Positions 52,333 to 59,947 of a stretch of DNA of 64,000 nucleotides are shown piece after piece. Position 1 is the first letter of the stretch; every line of letters starts with the position of its first letter. The stretch is taken from assembly GCA_021774735.1 (NCBI GenBank), contig JAJFIS010000021.1, positions 124,001-188,000 of the forward strand, given 5' to 3'. Origin of the DNA: Alphaproteobacteria bacterium. Lineage in GTDB: Bacteria > Pseudomonadota > Alphaproteobacteria > Sphingomonadales > Kordiimonadaceae. Below the pieces are notes generated by a model, which worked only from the letters and a program-made list of their open reading frames with translations, did not search any database and had not been told where the DNA came from. Both the position numbers and the translations under genes were made by a program.

Positions 52333-52968
52333 ATGACTGATATCGATTTTGCCGCCGTGCTTTGCTCTCGTCTATGTCACGATTTGGTTAGTCCGGTTGG
52401 GGCCATGTCTAATGGTTTGGAAATATTAAATGAGGAAACAGATGCCTCAATGCAGGAACAGGTTATGGACCTGTTGCAGAAGTCAACGCGCCAAACAACC
52501 AATAAACTACAGTTCTTTCGCTTAGCCTTTGGGGCAGGGGGCGGCTTTTCGAGCCAACTTGATATGCGAGAAGCTGAAAAGGCGCTTTTTGCTTATTTTG
52601 AAGGTAGCAGGGTTAATTTGATTTGGAATGTGCCCTTGCCGCATGTGTCAAAACAAATGGTAAAGTTTCTGTTGAATACGGCTATGGTTTCGGGTGAAAG
52701 TATGATCAGAGGTGGTGATTTAAACGTTAATATGTCTGAAAAAGACAATAAAATTCACCTATTTATCACGGCGCAAACCCCTCGTTTTCTGATGGCAGAC
52801 ACAATCCGAGATGCTTTAATGGGGGATATGGAAGAATCTTTATTGGACCCCCGCACGGCACCAGCCTATTTGGCAGGACAAGTTGCCCGGGAGCTAAATG
52901 GTACAATAAGCGTTCTAAAAGTTACGGAGGAGGAAACGCATATTCAGGCTATTCTCGATAAAGAATGA
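52333..52968 (+). CDS. chpT: Histidine phosphotransferase ChpT
   Basis: The 211-residue protein matches ChpT, which relays phosphate from the kinase CckA to CtrA and CpdR. The helix with the phospho-accepting His is in LCSRLCHDLVSPVGAMSNGLE, and the C-terminal half is an inactive HATPase-like fold. Its gene is placed directly before the chemotaxis operon and 6 kb from ctrA. CckA itself is not in this window. The ATG at 52333 is the natural start. Confidence 0.88.
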   Translation: MTDIDFAAVLCSRLCHDLVSPVGAMSNGLEILNEETDASMQEQVMDLLQKSTRQTTNKLQFFRLAFGAGGGFSSQLDMREAEKALFAYFEGSRVNLIWNVPLPHVSKQMVKFLLNTAMVSGESMIRGGDLNVNMSEKDNKIHLFITAQTPRFLMADTIRDALMGDMEESLLDPRTAPAYLAGQVARELNGTISVLKVTEEETHIQAILDKE

Positions 52969-53156
52969 AAATAAGCCCAACTTCTTGCCGTGATATTTTC
53001 TCAAAGTAATATTTTATCGCATTATCAGATTGATTTGTTGCTAAACTTTACATCATTTTAACCCTTTACCTAGATTGTCTGACTATGGGCAGTTAGTCAT
53101 GACCAATTAGAGCACATGGTGGATACCATTTGTTTTTGCAGTAAAGGCGATTGAAT

Positions 53157-56100
53157 ATGGATGATCTTTTAAATGAATTCTTGACCGAGACAGGCGAGAG
53201 TATTGATGTTGTTGATGTGGAAATTGTCAAACTTGAACAGGACCCCAGCAACAAGCCGGTAATTGATAATATCTTCCGGCTCGTTCACACCATTAAGGGC
53301 ACATGTGGGTTTTTAGGCTTGCCTCGATTAGAATCGGTCGCCCATTCAGCAGAAAATGTACTGAGTAAATTCCGAGATGGTGAACTTGAAGTAACGCAGG
53401 ATAGTGTCACCATCATATTGGAAAGCTTGGACTGTATTAAAGAAATTCTCGCTGCCATTGAAGCTACAGAGGAAGAACCTGAGGGTGATGACAGTGATCT
53501 CATTGGCCGATTAGATGCTATTGCCGCAGGTGAAACATCTGGTGCTTCTGCGCCGCCTGAGCCTTCTGAACCCGATACGGTTGAAGGCGAAATTGTTGAT
53601 GTTGACTCAGGCCGAAGTTTGAAACCTGGTGAAGTTTCCCTTGAAGAGCTGGAAGCAGCATTTGCTTCTGCACCGGGTCCAGAAGAAAGCGAAGTGGCTG
53701 AAACACCCGCCGCATCTGATGAAGCAACATCAGGTAGTTTGTATGACCGGATTGGTGGGGAAGATACGCTGGCCGTTGTTGCGCATATTATTTCTAATAA
53801 ATTGATAAATCATTCAACATTATCAGCCTTTTTTGGCGGGCAGGATGCAGAGGCTTTAAAATCCATGTTTATGGGACTTCTTGCCGCATTATACCAAGAC
53901 CAAGCGGATGTGGCTGAGAGTGTAGGGGGGCATCTGACAAATGATGCGAGCTTTGGTGACATGCAATTTGATGCCCTTACTGCGGTGGTATCAGAGGCCA
54001 TGAAGGAATGCCAGGTTGCCGCAGACTTCTGTGATGAAGCTACGATGGCGATGGAGCTCGTTCGCGATGTTGCCACCTCGGCAGCGCAGGCGGAAGTGGC
54101 TAAGAAAGCCAAGGCGGAGAAATCCAAAGCTTCCGCACCCGCAGCTGGTGGGGATGGCCGCAAAATAACCCAGTCCATCAGGGTTAGTGTTGACCTGTTA
54201 GAAGACTTAATGAATATGGTTTCAGAGCTAGTGCTGACCCGCAATCAGCTAATGCAAATATGCCGTAATCAAGAAGATAATGAGCTGCTAGTTCCCTTGC
54301 AACGCTTAAGCCAATGCACCACGGAGCTACAAGAGGGGGTAATGAAGACGCGCATGCAGCCGATTGGCAATGCCTGGGCGAAATTGCCGCGTATAGTTAG
54401 AGATTTAACAGTAGAACTAGATAAGAAAATTGACCTGCAAATGTTGGGTGCGGATACTGAATTAGACCGTCAAGTGCTGGAATTAATTAAAGATCCACTT
54501 ACACATATGGTACGAAATTCAGCGGATCATGGCATTGAGATGCCCAATGAGCGCTTAGCCCTTGGTAAAAAAGAAACCGGGACTATTCGCTTAAATGCTT
54601 ATCATGAAGGTGGCCACATTATCATTGAGATAACTGATGATGGTCGCGGTTTGAGCGCTAGTAAATTAATACCTAAAATTCTGGAAAAAGGTTTAGCTAC
54701 ACAGGCTGAGCTTGATGAAATGTCAGAAGCTCAAATTCAGAGATTTATTTTTCACGCAGGGTTTTCAATGGCGGCCAAAGTTACCAGCGTATCGGGTCGT
54801 GGGGTTGGAATGGATGTTGTAAGGTCCAATATTGAGAAAATTGGCGGTACCATTGATATGTCCTCAACAGAGGGCAAAGGCACAACCTTCCTCATTAAAA
54901 TTCCTCTGACCTTGGCCATTGTTTCAGCTCTTATTGTTCAGGCCCAGGGTAATCGTTTTGCTATCCCACAGATCAGTGTTCTCGAACTAGTGCGGGCCGC
55001 TGAAGGCAGCGAGTATGAAATAGAAAATATTAATGATGCACCGGTTGTGAGGCTGCGTAATCGCTTGTTACCACTTGTGTATTTAAATGATGTTTTGGGA
55101 CTTAAGCGTGATGATCAAAGCGCAGATTCAGAAGAAGATAAAAAAGATGATGGTACTACTGATGAGGACTTTATTGTTGTCGCTCAGGTAGGGTCTTATA
55201 TCTTTGGTATTGTGGTTGACCAAGTATTTGACACCGAAGAAATTGTCGTCAAGCCTGTGGCACCCATTTTGAAAGATCTACCAATTTATTCCGGAAATAC
55301 GATTTTGGGTGACGGTAGCGTTATCATGATCATTGATACAAATGGGGTTGCCTATGCATCCAATGCAGGCGCTACAGAGCAAGAAAGCGAAGACCAGCAA
55401 GAAGATGATGTGACTGAAAAAGCAATGGATGACACCGATAGCTTATTATTGTTCAGGGCTGGGAACGGAAATCCAAAAGCTGTTATGCTTTCGCTGGTTG
55501 CGCGCTTAGAAGATTTTCCTGTTGAGGACTTTGAAGATTCTAATGGTCGTTATGTGGTCCAATACCGCGGATCTCTAATGCCGATTGTGATGGCAGACCC
55601 TTCTATGACATTAACTGATAAGACCCGGCAGCCAGTTCTTGTATTCTCAGACGGGGAATATACCATGGGCTTAGCAGTTGAAAAAATATTAGACATTGTG
55701 GAAGCAGAACTTAACCTTAATCTTGGCTCTGCAACCCCAGGCATTGTTGGTTCAGCCATAATCGAAGATAAAGCAACAGAGGTCATTGATGTTACCTACT
55801 TCCTGTCTCAGGCCTTTGCCAATTGGCTCGAAAAGCGAGATGCAATAGACGAGAGTTCAACAATTCAAAAGCCTCGTATTTTACTTATTGACGATAGTGA
55901 CTTCTTCCGCAATATGTTGAAACCATTGCTGTCAGTTGCGGGTTATCAAGTGAGCGCTGTTTCATCTGCTCAAGCCGCGCTTGATATGCGCGAAGCCGGA
56001 GTGATGTTTGATATGATCGTCTCAGATATCGAAATGCCAGAGATTAGTGGCTTTGATTTTGCCAAGTCGGTTAAATCAGACCCCCGTTGGTCGTCAGTAC

Positions 56101-56249
56101 CGCTTGTTGCCTTGTCAGCCTTGACAAGTGAGCGTGATCTTGAGCGTGGCAGAGCAGTTGGCTTTGATGACTATGTCGCTAAGTTCGATAAAGAAACCTT
56201 ACTGCAAGCTTTATCAATGCAGTTGAAAATTCAAGGAGATGCAGCATGA
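53157..56249 (+). CDS. cheA: Hybrid chemotaxis kinase CheA with globin-like insert and C-terminal receiver
   Basis: This protein is 1030 residues, much longer than usual CheA. Domains in order: Hpt (1-105, His44 in LVHTIKGTCGF); acidic linker; a segment resembling group-I truncated globins (about 194-308, SLYDRIGGEDTLAVV ... STLSAFFGG ... MQFDALTAVV); dimerisation helices (about 336-400); HATPase (about 440-590, HMVRNSADHGIE, DDGRGL, GRGVGMDVV); CheW domain (to about 735); a second divergent CheW-like domain (about 760-895); and a receiver (about 905-1028, Asp in VSDIEMP). No P2 domain is recognised, and the globin-like part occupies its place. The ATG at 53157 follows AAAGGCGA. The stop overlaps cheW by four bases. 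Confidence 0.95.
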   Translation: MDDLLNEFLTETGESIDVVDVEIVKLEQDPSNKPVIDNIFRLVHTIKGTCGFLGLPRLESVAHSAENVLSKFRDGELEVTQDSVTIILESLDCIKEILAAIEATEEEPEGDDSDLIGRLDAIAAGETSGASAPPEPSEPDTVEGEIVDVDSGRSLKPGEVSLEELEAAFASAPGPEESEVAETPAASDEATSGSLYDRIGGEDTLAVVAHIISNKLINHSTLSAFFGGQDAEALKSMFMGLLAALYQDQADVAESVGGHLTNDASFGDMQFDALTAVVSEAMKECQVAADFCDEATMAMELVRDVATSAAQAEVAKKAKAEKSKASAPAAGGDGRKITQSIRVSVDLLEDLMNMVSELVLTRNQLMQICRNQEDNELLVPLQRLSQCTTELQEGVMKTRMQPIGNAWAKLPRIVRDLTVELDKKIDLQMLGADTELDRQVLELIKDPLTHMVRNSADHGIEMPNERLALGKKETGTIRLNAYHEGGHIIIEITDDGRGLSASKLIPKILEKGLATQAELDEMSEAQIQRFIFHAGFSMAAKVTSVSGRGVGMDVVRSNIEKIGGTIDMSSTEGKGTTFLIKIPLTLAIVSALIVQAQGNRFAIPQISVLELVRAAEGSEYEIENINDAPVVRLRNRLLPLVYLNDVLGLKRDDQSADSEEDKKDDGTTDEDFIVVAQVGSYIFGIVVDQVFDTEEIVVKPVAPILKDLPIYSGNTILGDGSVIMIIDTNGVAYASNAGATEQESEDQQEDDVTEKAMDDTDSLLLFRAGNGNPKAVMLSLVARLEDFPVEDFEDSNGRYVVQYRGSLMPIVMADPSMTLTDKTRQPVLVFSDGEYTMGLAVEKILDIVEAELNLNLGSATPGIVGSAIIEDKATEVIDVTYFLSQAFANWLEKRDAIDESSTIQKPRILLIDDSDFFRNMLKPLLSVAGYQVSAVSSAQAALDMREAGVMFDMIVSDIEMPEISGFDFAKSVKSDPRWSSVPLVALSALTSERDLERGRAVGFDDYVAKFDKETLLQALSMQLKIQGDAA
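53730..54074 (+). other. Truncated-globin-like region inside cheA
   Basis: This region encodes about residues 194-308 of the CheA above. It reads like the A-B-E-F-G-H helices of trHbN proteins: SLYDRIGG, then LAVVAHIISNKL, FFGG, LLAALY and FDALTAVVSEAM. The B10 tyrosine position is Ile. A histidine (GGHLTND) lies two residues from the usual proximal-His spacing. Haem binding is therefore uncertain, and the segment may be a haem-free globin fold. Confidence 0.6.
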
Positions 56250-56728
56250 ATGACCTTGTAGTACGGGATGATTTGAGTGTTGTTGCTAATGGAAAGCAAG
56301 ATTTTGTAACTATTTATTTAGCAGGCCAGTTGCTAGGCATTCCGGTTTTAGCAGTTCATGACGTTCTGAATGCCCAGAAAATTACACCAATACCTTTGGC
56401 CCCCGATTGGGTGGCAGGTGTCTTAAACTTGCGAGGTAAGATTGTTACTGCCATCAGCTTGAGAAGGCGGTTAAATTTACCGGCAAGAAAGCCTGATGAG
56501 AAGAGCATGTCAGTGGTGATAGAACATAATGACGAGCCCTACAGCCTTCAAATTGATAAAGTTGGTGAAGTCTTATCCTTGGATGATAGTTTGTTCGAGA
56601 AGAATCCAAACACGCTTGATGCATGTTGGAGAGAGGTTAGTCGGGGTATTTACCGACTTGAAGATACACTGATGGCTGTTTTAGATGTTGATAAATTACT
56701 CGAAACAACCAATGCTGTTGCTGCATAG
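56246..56728 (+). CDS. cheW: Chemotaxis coupling protein CheW
   Basis: The 160-residue single-domain CheW links receptors to CheA. Conserved segments are LAGQLLGIPVLAVHDVL, WVAGVLNLRGKIVTAISLR and DEPYSLQIDKVGEVL. The start overlaps the cheA stop by four bases (ATGA), so both are made together. No receptor gene is in the window, so signals must come from receptors encoded elsewhere. Confidence 0.95.
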   Translation: MNDLVVRDDLSVVANGKQDFVTIYLAGQLLGIPVLAVHDVLNAQKITPIPLAPDWVAGVLNLRGKIVTAISLRRRLNLPARKPDEKSMSVVIEHNDEPYSLQIDKVGEVLSLDDSLFEKNPNTLDACWREVSRGIYRLEDTLMAVLDVDKLLETTNAVAA

Positions 56729-56770
56729 TAAATGCATATAGGAAGTACGATTAAAAAGGGTGACCACTAG

Positions 56771-57136
56771 ATGAAACAATGTCTTGTTGTAGACGATTCT
56801 AAAGTAATTCGCCGAGTCGCTCGGCGCATTTTAGAGGAGCTTAATTTTGAGGTTGAAGAAGCTGTTGACGGTAAGGACGCGCTTGAAAAATCTTTGAGCA
56901 ATACACCGGCTGTAGTTTTATTAGACTGGAACATGCCAGTTATGGATGGATTGGAATATTTAAAAGCAATGCGGGCAAGTCCTAATATTGCCCAGCCCAT
57001 TGTTGTATTTTGTACCACTGAAAATGACATGTCGCATATTAGGGCTGCAATTGAAGCCGGCGCAAATGAATATATTATGAAACCCTTTGATCGTGAAATT
57101 ATTGAAGCAAAATTTTCCCAATGTGGTTTGCTCTAA
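56771..57136 (+). CDS. cheY: Single-domain response regulator CheY
   Basis: The 121-residue receiver has the acidic pocket VVDDSK, phospho-acceptor Asp in VVLLDWNMP and Lys in YIMKPFD. It would carry the signal from CheA to the flagellar motor. It follows cheW with a 42-base gap and precedes cheB by 12 bases. Another CheY-like partner of the hybrid kinase is possible elsewhere. Confidence 0.95.
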   Translation: MKQCLVVDDSKVIRRVARRILEELNFEVEEAVDGKDALEKSLSNTPAVVLLDWNMPVMDGLEYLKAMRASPNIAQPIVVFCTTENDMSHIRAAIEAGANEYIMKPFDREIIEAKFSQCGLL

Positions 57137-57148
57137 AAGGTTTGACAC

Positions 57149-58360
57149 TTGAATTCTATTTTAAAAAAACAACATGCTATAAAAGACAGCGGCACCCCCT
57201 TTCGAGTAATGGTGGTTGATGATAGCGCGGTTATTCGCGGTTTTATCAAACGGTATCTTATGGATGACCCAATGATTGATGTTGTCGCGACGGCAAGTGA
57301 TGGCCTCATGGCACTCACGCTCATGAAAAGCCAAGACATTGAAGCGATAGTGTTAGACATCGAAATGCCGCGTATGGATGGATTAACAGCGCTACCAAAA
57401 TTAATTGAGATGAATCCTGATGTTGCGATTGTCATGGCATCCACATTGACCTTGAAAAGTGCTGAAGTTAGTTTGACAGCCTTGCAAAAAGGGGCCGTGG
57501 ATTATGTCCCTAAGCCTGAATCTGCCCGTAATATGCATGCGAGCAATGAATTTCGAACTGAGCTCCTAAGCAAAGTGAAGGCCTGGGCGACACGTCGGCG
57601 CAAGAAAAGGGGTGTTCCCTTACCCAGTGGCATTGGTGCAGAAAGTCGCTCAGGAATTACTAAACCAGCAAAACCGGCTGGCAATGCTGCAGCAGAGCCA
57701 GACCGGGCACCTGTTAAAAAACGGTCACCGGTGATAATTTCGTCTGATGCAATTAAATTTAAGCCGCTCAAAATAGTGAAGCCAAAAATTTTGGCAATTG
57801 CTTCTTCCACGGGTGGACCACAAGCCCTGTTGAAATTTTTTACCGAATTTAAACAACGGCCCAAAGTGCCAATTGTTATTACCCAGCATATGCCTGCGCA
57901 TTTCACGGCTATTCTTGCGCAGCACATCAACCAGCATACGGGGTGGGACGCTAGCGAGGCAGCCGATGGCATGGTTTTGGAAAGCGGTAAGGTTTATGTG
58001 GCACCAGGTGACTATCATTTAACTTTTGAAAAAGATGGCCAGAAGATAATATGTCGGCTCGATCAGAACCCGCCTGAAAACTTTTGTCGACCATCCGCTG
58101 ACCCCATGTTCCGCAGCTTAGGAAAATTATTTTCTGATAAGGTTCTTTGTGTCATTTTGACAGGGATGGGCTATGATGGCCTTGAGGGGGCGCGAGATTT
58201 AAGTGCTATGGGGGCTAATGTTATGGCACAAGATGAAGCAACTAGTGTGGTTTGGGGCATGCCTGGTGCAGTTGCCTCGGCCGGAATATGTGCAAAGGTA
58301 TTACCATTGAGTGAATTGGGCGATGTGACCTTCCAGCAGCAAAGTGGAGGTGCCTTCTAA
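57149..58360 (+). CDS. cheB: Chemoreceptor methylesterase/deamidase CheB
   Basis: The 403-residue protein has an N-terminal receiver (VMVVDDSAVIRG, Asp in AIVLDIEMPRMDG). A Pro/Lys-rich linker of about 60 residues follows, then the methylesterase domain. The catalytic triad is in SSTGGPQALLKF, ITQHMPAHFTAIL and TGMGYDGLEGARD. The TTG start at 57149 lies after AAAGG and gives the receiver its first strand; no ATG serves as well. Its stop overlaps the cheR start. Confidence 0.95.
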   Translation: MNSILKKQHAIKDSGTPFRVMVVDDSAVIRGFIKRYLMDDPMIDVVATASDGLMALTLMKSQDIEAIVLDIEMPRMDGLTALPKLIEMNPDVAIVMASTLTLKSAEVSLTALQKGAVDYVPKPESARNMHASNEFRTELLSKVKAWATRRRKKRGVPLPSGIGAESRSGITKPAKPAGNAAAEPDRAPVKKRSPVIISSDAIKFKPLKIVKPKILAIASSTGGPQALLKFFTEFKQRPKVPIVITQHMPAHFTAILAQHINQHTGWDASEAADGMVLESGKVYVAPGDYHLTFEKDGQKIICRLDQNPPENFCRPSADPMFRSLGKLFSDKVLCVILTGMGYDGLEGARDLSAMGANVMAQDEATSVVWGMPGAVASAGICAKVLPLSELGDVTFQQQSGGAF

Positions 58361-59190
58361 TGCGTACAGAAGACTTTGATTTTCTTGCAAAATTACTAAA
58401 GCAGCGTTCCGGCCTTATGCTAACCCAGGATAAGGTATATCTTCTTGAGAGCCGTTTAACACCTATTGCACGCGAAAGGGGTTTGGCAGGTCTTGATGAA
58501 CTTATTTCCAAATTGCGCTCGAGCCGGGATGAAGGCTTGATGAATGATGTTACAGAGGCCATGACAACGAACGAATCCTTCTTCTTTAGGGACAACACGC
58601 CCTTTGACCTGTTTCGTGATCATGTTTTACCAATGCTTGAGAAGCGCCGTACGAATAAGAAAATTCGCATTTGGTGTGCAGCAGCCTCCACAGGCCAAGA
58701 GCCATATTCCCTTGCAATGATATTGAAGGAAAATTGGCATAAATGGCAATCGTGGAATATTGAGATCATCGCAACTGATATTTCAGCGCAAGTTTTGGAT
58801 AAAGCCAAACGAGGGCATTATAGCCAGTTTGAGGTTCAGCGCGGGTTACCTATTCAAATGCTCATTAAATATTTCAAGCAGGATGGCGAAGTCTGGAAGA
58901 TTAGTGACGAGATTCGCCGGATGGTAAATTACCGTGAGTTTAATCTGCTCGATAATTTTGCGAGTTTAGGCCAGTGCGATATTCTTTTTTGCCGTAATGT
59001 TTTGATCTATTTTGATCAGCCAACAAAAAGTGATGTACTTGGTCGTATGTCACAATTGCTCGCAGCTGATGGTGCATTATTTTTAGGTTCAGCTGAAACG
59101 GTGTTGGGTATAACCGATAAATTCCGCCCCGTGCGCAGCAGACGCGGCCTATATGTTCAATCTGCAGCACCAGATGATTTAATCACATAA
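58360..59190 (+). CDS. cheR: Chemoreceptor methyltransferase CheR
   Basis: The 276-residue SAM-dependent enzyme methylates receptor glutamates and opposes CheB. It has the N-terminal helical domain (MLTQDKVYLLESRL) and the SAM domain with TTNESFFFRD, WCAAASTGQEPYSLAM and ILFCRNVLIYFD. Its start overlaps the cheB stop (TAATG). A strong bidirectional terminator follows directly. Confidence 0.96.
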   Translation: MRTEDFDFLAKLLKQRSGLMLTQDKVYLLESRLTPIARERGLAGLDELISKLRSSRDEGLMNDVTEAMTTNESFFFRDNTPFDLFRDHVLPMLEKRRTNKKIRIWCAAASTGQEPYSLAMILKENWHKWQSWNIEIIATDISAQVLDKAKRGHYSQFEVQRGLPIQMLIKYFKQDGEVWKISDEIRRMVNYREFNLLDNFASLGQCDILFCRNVLIYFDQPTKSDVLGRMSQLLAADGALFLGSAETVLGITDKFRPVRSRRGLYVQSAAPDDLIT

Positions 59191-59248: not shown

Positions 59249-59947
59249 TTAGGCTGCTTCGTCTTCGCTCGTTTCTGGGTTGCGTAAAACATAACCCCGT
59301 CCCCAAACCGTCTCGATGTAATTATTGCCCCCTGTGGCAACAGAGAGTTTTTTGCGTAACTTGCAGATAAAGACATCGATGATTTTCAGTTCAGGCTCGT
59401 CAATACCGCCGTAAAGATGGTTCAAAAACATTTCTTTGGTTAGCGTTGTGCCTTTCCGCAAAGACAGAAGCTCAAGCATAGCATATTCTTTACCCGTCAA
59501 ATGAACCCGCTGTTTATCGGCTTCAACCGTTTTGGTGTCCAAATTAACAGCCAATTTACCGGTGCTAATAATGGATTGGCTATGGCCCTTAGAGCGGCGT
59601 ACAATTGCATGAATGCGGGCAACCATTTCTTCCTTGTGAAAAGGTTTGGTCATATAGTCATCGGCACCAAAGCCAAGGCCCTTAACTTTATTTTCCATTT
59701 CAGTCAGGCCAGATAGGATCAAAATGGGGGTGTTTATCTTTGAAACACGTAATTTCTTTAAAACATCATAACCATGCATATCAGGCAAATTCAGGTCAAG
59801 CAGGATGATGTCATAATCGTATAGTTTTCCCAAATCTAAGCCTTCTTCACCAAGGTCGGTACTATATACATTAAACCCTTCTGAGGTCAGCATTAACTCA
59901 ATGCTTCGGGTCAGGGTTGGGTCGTCTTCAATAAGTAAAACGCGCAT
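59249..59947 (-). CDS. ctrA: Cell-cycle master regulator CtrA
   Basis: The 232-residue OmpR-type regulator has its phospho-acceptor at Asp51 in [10 protein letters not shown], exactly as in Caulobacter CtrA. The winged helix contains [17 protein letters not shown] and [13 protein letters not shown]. The protein ends in two alanines (EDEAA), matching the C-terminal degradation signal read by ClpXP in Caulobacter. It is fed by ChpT, encoded 6 kb away, and in many alphaproteobacteria controls flagellar and chemotaxis genes. It is divergent from fliI. Confidence 0.97.

Follow-up and report, generated by a model that had tools for sequence, protein, structure and literature searches.

The hybrid CheA kinase encoded in the window, by which we mean the whole 64,000-nucleotide stretch of DNA analysed here, carries between its Hpt and dimerisation domains a domain that is homologous to group 1 truncated haemoglobins (trHbs), an ancestry that we regard as settled. 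In the order to which the window belongs, this globin appears to have lost its haem, and it probably serves, without haem, as a module for regulation or interaction. We found no description of a truncated globin in CheA in the open-access literature. The auxiliary domains named in a survey of CheA proteins are P2, receiver and CheC/CheX, the word "globin" being absent from its text (PMC10782961), and the passages on globin-coupled receptors in a 2026 aerotaxis review mention no globin in CheA (PMC13401364).

The hybrid CheA and its globin domain

The window CheA is the sole CheA found in the genome, in which the chemoreceptor signalling domain has eight above-cut-off matches and PF01152 finds no truncated globin at E ≤ 0.001. 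Pfam recognises the Hpt, H-kinase_dim, HATPase_c and CheW domains that identify a CheA histidine kinase and, taken together with the globin analysis, gives the order Hpt, linker, globin, linker, H-kinase_dim, HATPase_c, two CheW stretches and receiver. The genes and domains of the locus are as follows.

52333–52968 (+): ChpT-like histidine phosphotransferase gene, upstream of cheA (Pfam HPTransfase, 95 bits)
53151–56249 (+): hybrid CheA, 1032 aa (ORF with TTG start; ATG at 53157)
53163–53462 (+): Hpt (P1), residues 5–104 (Pfam E = 1e-14), in which the HTIKG phosphorylation-site motif was located
53730–54074 (+): truncated-globin-like domain, residues 194–308 (profile homology, AlphaFold model, Foldseek, VIA)
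54171–54350 (+): dimerisation domain P3 (H-kinase_dim), residues 341–400 (Pfam E = 3.7e-15)
54492–54911 (+): kinase ATPase domain P4 (HATPase_c), residues 448–587 (Pfam E = 6.8e-17)
54927–55349 (+): CheW domain, top-scoring of the two CheW stretches, residues 593–733 (Pfam)
55878–56213 (+): C-terminal receiver domain, residues 910–1021 (Pfam E = 1.3e-17)
56246–59190 (+): cheW, cheY, cheB and cheR, downstream of cheA (Pfam)
59249–59947 (−): OmpR-type response regulator, CtrA-like by context (Pfam Response_reg and Trans_reg_C)

The OmpR-type (CtrA-like) regulator is 82–92% identical among the Kordiimonadaceae loci that reach that far. An association of the globin with chpT was tested and rejected: an upstream chpT is also common beside globin-less cheA genes, being present in 12 of 17 loci with the globin and 55 of 77 without it (one globin locus, L133, was tallied as "without" owing to a second frame). 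Alphaproteobacterial hybrid CheAs with two CheW domains form class F5 (PMC10782961). By domain content alone, the window CheA has the features of this class, namely Hpt, H-kinase_dim, HATPase_c, a duplicated CheW, a C-terminal receiver and no P2 match in Pfam, and differs from it by the extra globin domain.

A Pfam scan of the whole CheA protein calls no domain in the Hpt–P3 linker at the globin site. Searched singly, the window sequence matches Pfam Bac_globin (PF01152) at E = 0.01 with 16.5 bits, under the 21-bit cut-off, and mycobacterial trHbN in the PDB at E = 0.0034. Single-sequence Pfam and NCBIfam scans are not enough, and we regard the homology as settled because of a profile built from 33 orthologous CheA inserts, of which 17 individually match PF01152 at E ≤ 1. 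The best PDB match of this profile reaches 2e-11 over nearly the full length, and the 20 different solved sequences that it finds at E < 0.001 are truncated globins without exception. An AlphaFold2 model based on an alignment of 25 sequences is all-helical (pLDDT 86.1, pTM 0.78), its final globin helix extending to about residue 321. Foldseek with this model returned globins throughout the top 50, truncated globins first (probability 1.00, best E 1.2e-3), and VIA matched it to Chlamydomonas haemoglobin 1dly with a Z of 14.6 and 2.3 Å over 114 residues. In VIA, most group 1 trHbs scored Z of about 13 to 14.6, values near 13 being possible non-specifically among helical bundles, as against 9.7–9.8 for the globin-coupled sensor DosC. 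Despite that caveat, we accept the globin ancestry because the sequence and fold searches converge on one subfamily. The preliminary description had read a truncated-globin helix pattern in about these residues and proposed profile, PDB and AlphaFold/Foldseek searches as its checks; the translation confirms the coordinates, and all of these searches led to truncated globins.

The CheA globin thus resembles group 1 trHbs (trHbN, THB1, cyanoglobin; PF01152) in sequence profile, in the 2-on-2 arrangement of its helices, in a GG motif close to the A/B corner and, usually, in CD1 Phe; it differs from them in being embedded in a kinase, in lacking the proximal His and B10 Tyr and in having the order-specific His212 and Lys237. 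With globin-coupled sensors such as HemAT and the globin-coupled kinases and cyclases it shares the placement of a globin on a signalling output, here chemotaxis. Those sensors, however, carry an N-terminal 3-on-3 haem globin of the sensor family on receptors, kinases or cyclases, whereas the window globin is truncated, scores higher with group 1 trHbs, lies internally after the Hpt within CheA itself and is probably haem-free.

Haem residues and selection

Four sites bear on whether the domain holds haem. Their helix positions follow what we take to be the trHbN and THB1 numbering, B10 corresponding to Tyr33 of trHbN.

53784–53786 (+): His212, position B7, 98% conserved in the window's order (alignment)
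53793–53795 (+): Ser215 at B10, a Tyr in haem-type trHbs (trHbN alignment)
53859–53861 (+): Lys237, position E8, 98% conserved in the window's order (alignment)
53928–53933 (+): Gly260 at F8, where the proximal His is lost, and the adjacent His261 (alignment)

The alignment has neither an F8 His nor a B10 Tyr in any of the 47 CheA globin domains of the window's order (0/47 for each). The GGP pattern of haem-type sequences is absent from the loop before F. The alignment also has 38 rows with the label stand-alone, L027 among them being in fact a cut CheA fragment; F8 His occurs in 37 of these rows and B10 Tyr in 36. CD1 Phe is retained in 38 of the 47 CheA globins. These counts agree with the haem-free domain that the preliminary description had preferred, and its residue assignments shift slightly. 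It had B10 Tyr replaced by Ile; the Tyr is indeed missing, but the residue at B10 is Ser215, Ile214 being B9. It had the candidate proximal His offset by two residues; the F8 His is absent, but His261 stands one position beyond F8 in our alignment, and it is not common to orthologues of the window CheA.

The positions of His212 and Lys237 are occupied differently elsewhere: haem-type sequences mostly have Asp or Glu at B7, and Gln or Arg stands at E8 outside the window's order. The globin is under purifying selection, with dN/dS of about 0.04–0.13 in those eight pairs that gave usable values (simple NG86 over 115 codons, dS being near saturation in some pairs). This selection, the loss of the F8 and B10 residues and the new His212 and Lys237 together point to a domain that has probably lost haem and works as a regulatory or interaction module.

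Distribution and history of the CheA globins

Within the window's order, a match to the insert was found in 58 of 298 genomes, some of the matches being stand-alone globins, and orthologous globins sit at the same CheA position in CheA-length ORFs. In an independent collection, most of the named members belong to Kordiimonas or its relatives. The search of CheA homologues that had been suggested at the outset therefore has a positive answer, the globin not being unique to the window CheA, and a class-wide search with ORF reading and Pfam located the same insertion in CheAs from roughly ten further families of Alphaproteobacteria. In the CheA of L130, for instance, Bac_globin scores 68.6 bits in Pfam, against a cut-off of 21, and is called together with Hpt, H-kinase_dim, HATPase_c, two CheW stretches and a receiver; since Pfam recognises this haem-type architecture, it is presumably already listed automatically in domain databases. 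A plasmid search for named relatives matched truncated haemoglobins, none of which is listed as part of a CheA.

The haem residues vary among these proteins. Both F8 His and B10 Tyr are kept in L128, L081/L141, L130, L134, L135, L131 and L196; Phe stands at F8 in L136, L137 and L116/L117 (the same proteins as L133/L132), and Pro in L138, L139 and L161. One and the same site in these related proteins thus holds haem-type and haem-less versions, and the F8 His is missing from several separate family groups. The gas sensor that had been offered as the other reading of the window domain, which lacks both residues, is a serious one for the relatives in which they are intact, and we consider these CheAs candidate kinase-borne gas sensors. 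L128 and L129 have, in addition, a second truncated globin, haem ligands included, that lies close to the CheW domains or between them (residues 709–830 and 655–776, respectively).

Within the class, the insertion is a minority trait, present in about 17 of about 93 sampled hybrid CheAs, the former comprising 13 first found by the globin search and 4 of the 80 that were fetched irrespective of a globin. The gap between Hpt and P3 is mostly 70–150 residues without the globin and about 175–256 with it. With a profile from known members, no globin is detectable in the linker of most hybrid CheAs of the class; because of this origin of the profile, strongly degenerate copies could escape detection, L162 with its gap of 191 being a possible case.

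In a P3–P4 tree that excludes the globin, the 23 CheAs of the window's order, all with the globin, form one group (SH-aLRT 99). Over the class, this tree requires at least ten changes of the globin label, its deep forks being weak. The globin-only tree has few columns and long branches; its resolution is poor, and a single clade of all CheA globins is not rejected (p-AU 0.81). Both a single insertion with many losses and several insertions may explain these trees.

Linker and possible roles of the globin

The linker that precedes the globin holds a second conserved element.

53622–53681 (+): conserved linear motif KPGEVSLEELEAAFASAPGP, residues 158–177, before the globin (linker comparison)

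This motif occurs in 37 of 39 linkers of the window's order, in 23 of 75 globin-less linkers of the class and in 0 of 18 other globin CheAs; composition-shuffled linkers gave zero matches, the pattern was set after viewing the sequences, and the counts ignore kinship. It is modelled as a short helix flanked by low-confidence stretches. Of a 598-residue CheA model we used only local features because its mean pLDDT is 65. The globin is well predicted in it, with ten-residue blocks mostly at 81–92, and is flanked by low-confidence stretches at positions 172–191 and 316–348 of the modelled fragment, whose first residue is residue 3 of the CheA. A tethered domain within a flexible linker would be expected to look like this. 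Many globin-less alphaproteobacterial Hpt–P3 linkers, among them those of L147, L174, L182, L209 and L212, have the motif in the form (x)PGEVSL[DE][DE]LE(A/R)(A/V)F....PGP, sometimes in two copies, and other repeated linker motifs are DEHGFVPVPA in L223 and EGFPVA in L158 and L160.

The explanation that we favour, and hold to be moderately probable, is that a group 1 trHb was inserted in the flexible Hpt-to-dimerisation-domain linker of an alphaproteobacterial hybrid CheA, lost haem in the window's order and now binds a putative partner or ligand that would tune Hpt or kinase access. Building on the computed homology, fold, position, loss of the F8 and B10 residues and purifying selection, we infer that the haem-free globin on its two tethers would bind either another protein or some small ligand that is not a haem-bound gas, and that binding would alter the freedom of the Hpt to approach the kinase or the response regulators. 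The likeliest functional residues would be His212 (B7) and Lys237 (E8), which are specific to the order and lie close to where the B and E helices cross. Such a globin could give CheA an input or docking point independent of chemoreceptors; according to the CheA survey, the kinase lacks a sensor domain of its own and depends on chemoreceptors (PMC10782961).

Compared by description only, RsbR differs in its output (STAS), in the N-terminal position of its globin and, we presume, in the globin family. The non-haem globin domains of the RsbR stressosome are a precedent for a haem-free globin fold in signalling (PMC9237108). Against our explanation stands the linear motif, which is shared with globin-less CheAs and possibly is a response-regulator docking motif; if it is the real docking site, the globin would be otherwise employed. 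The absence of haem, moreover, is read from sequence, and a few haem proteins rely on other ligands.

An unlikely alternative, though the best placed of those considered, is that the globin acts purely as a spacer: with neither ligand nor partner, this folded bead would set the reach of the Hpt or the spacing in receptor arrays. The modelled tethers at both ends of the globin, the lack of a detectable one in most hybrid CheAs of the class and its faster change (42–50% identity of the window globin to most same-family globin domains, up to 83% for P3–P4) would all suit a spacer, but certain polar residues hardly vary among several families, and a plain spacer would not require this.

It is distinctly unlikely that the globin has taken the place of a lost P2 domain in binding CheY. 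The preliminary description had set the globin in the place of P2, and it does stand between Hpt and P3, where E. coli has P2, in a CheA without a P2 match; however, in the majority of hybrid CheAs of the class this stretch is just a short linker without a globin, so that probably no P2 was replaced, and the conserved linear motif offers another docking site. Least probable, to the point of being very doubtful, is continued haem binding through a non-canonical ligand (His212, His261 or others) for sensing O2, NO or redox in the kinase, since the frequent CD1 Phe, the full haem ligands of relatives at the same site and the conservation of His212 are outweighed by the loss of F8 His and B10 Tyr in 47 of 47 domains, the restricted occurrence of His261, the missing GGP pattern and the position of B7, which on our own reading of the fold does not line the pocket in trHbN.

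Over the class as a whole, we tentatively suggest that a gas sensor was built into an alphaproteobacterial CheA and then, in several lineages including that of the window, made haem-free, with a new ligand or partner site at His212/Lys237 acting as a receptor-independent input, while haem-type versions persist. The CheA globins of some species are haem-competent judged by sequence, those of others haem-less, and together they form a natural series that can test both gas sensing by CheA and how a haem sensor turns into a haem-free regulatory domain. The family could thus show how a gas sensor came to be built into a kinase and was later repurposed.

Other arrangements of truncated globins were also seen. 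Two open frames, L142:1965-4829 and L144:1983-3032, combine a group 1 truncated globin with PAS, the former also having an MCP signalling domain and so being a truncated-globin-coupled chemoreceptor. The 597-residue open frame L143:1977-3767 has a C-terminal truncated globin and no further Pfam match, and the rest of it may be a non-coding frame. Finally, L077:2267-3109, from a gammaproteobacterial MAG, holds two tandem truncated globins in one ORF.
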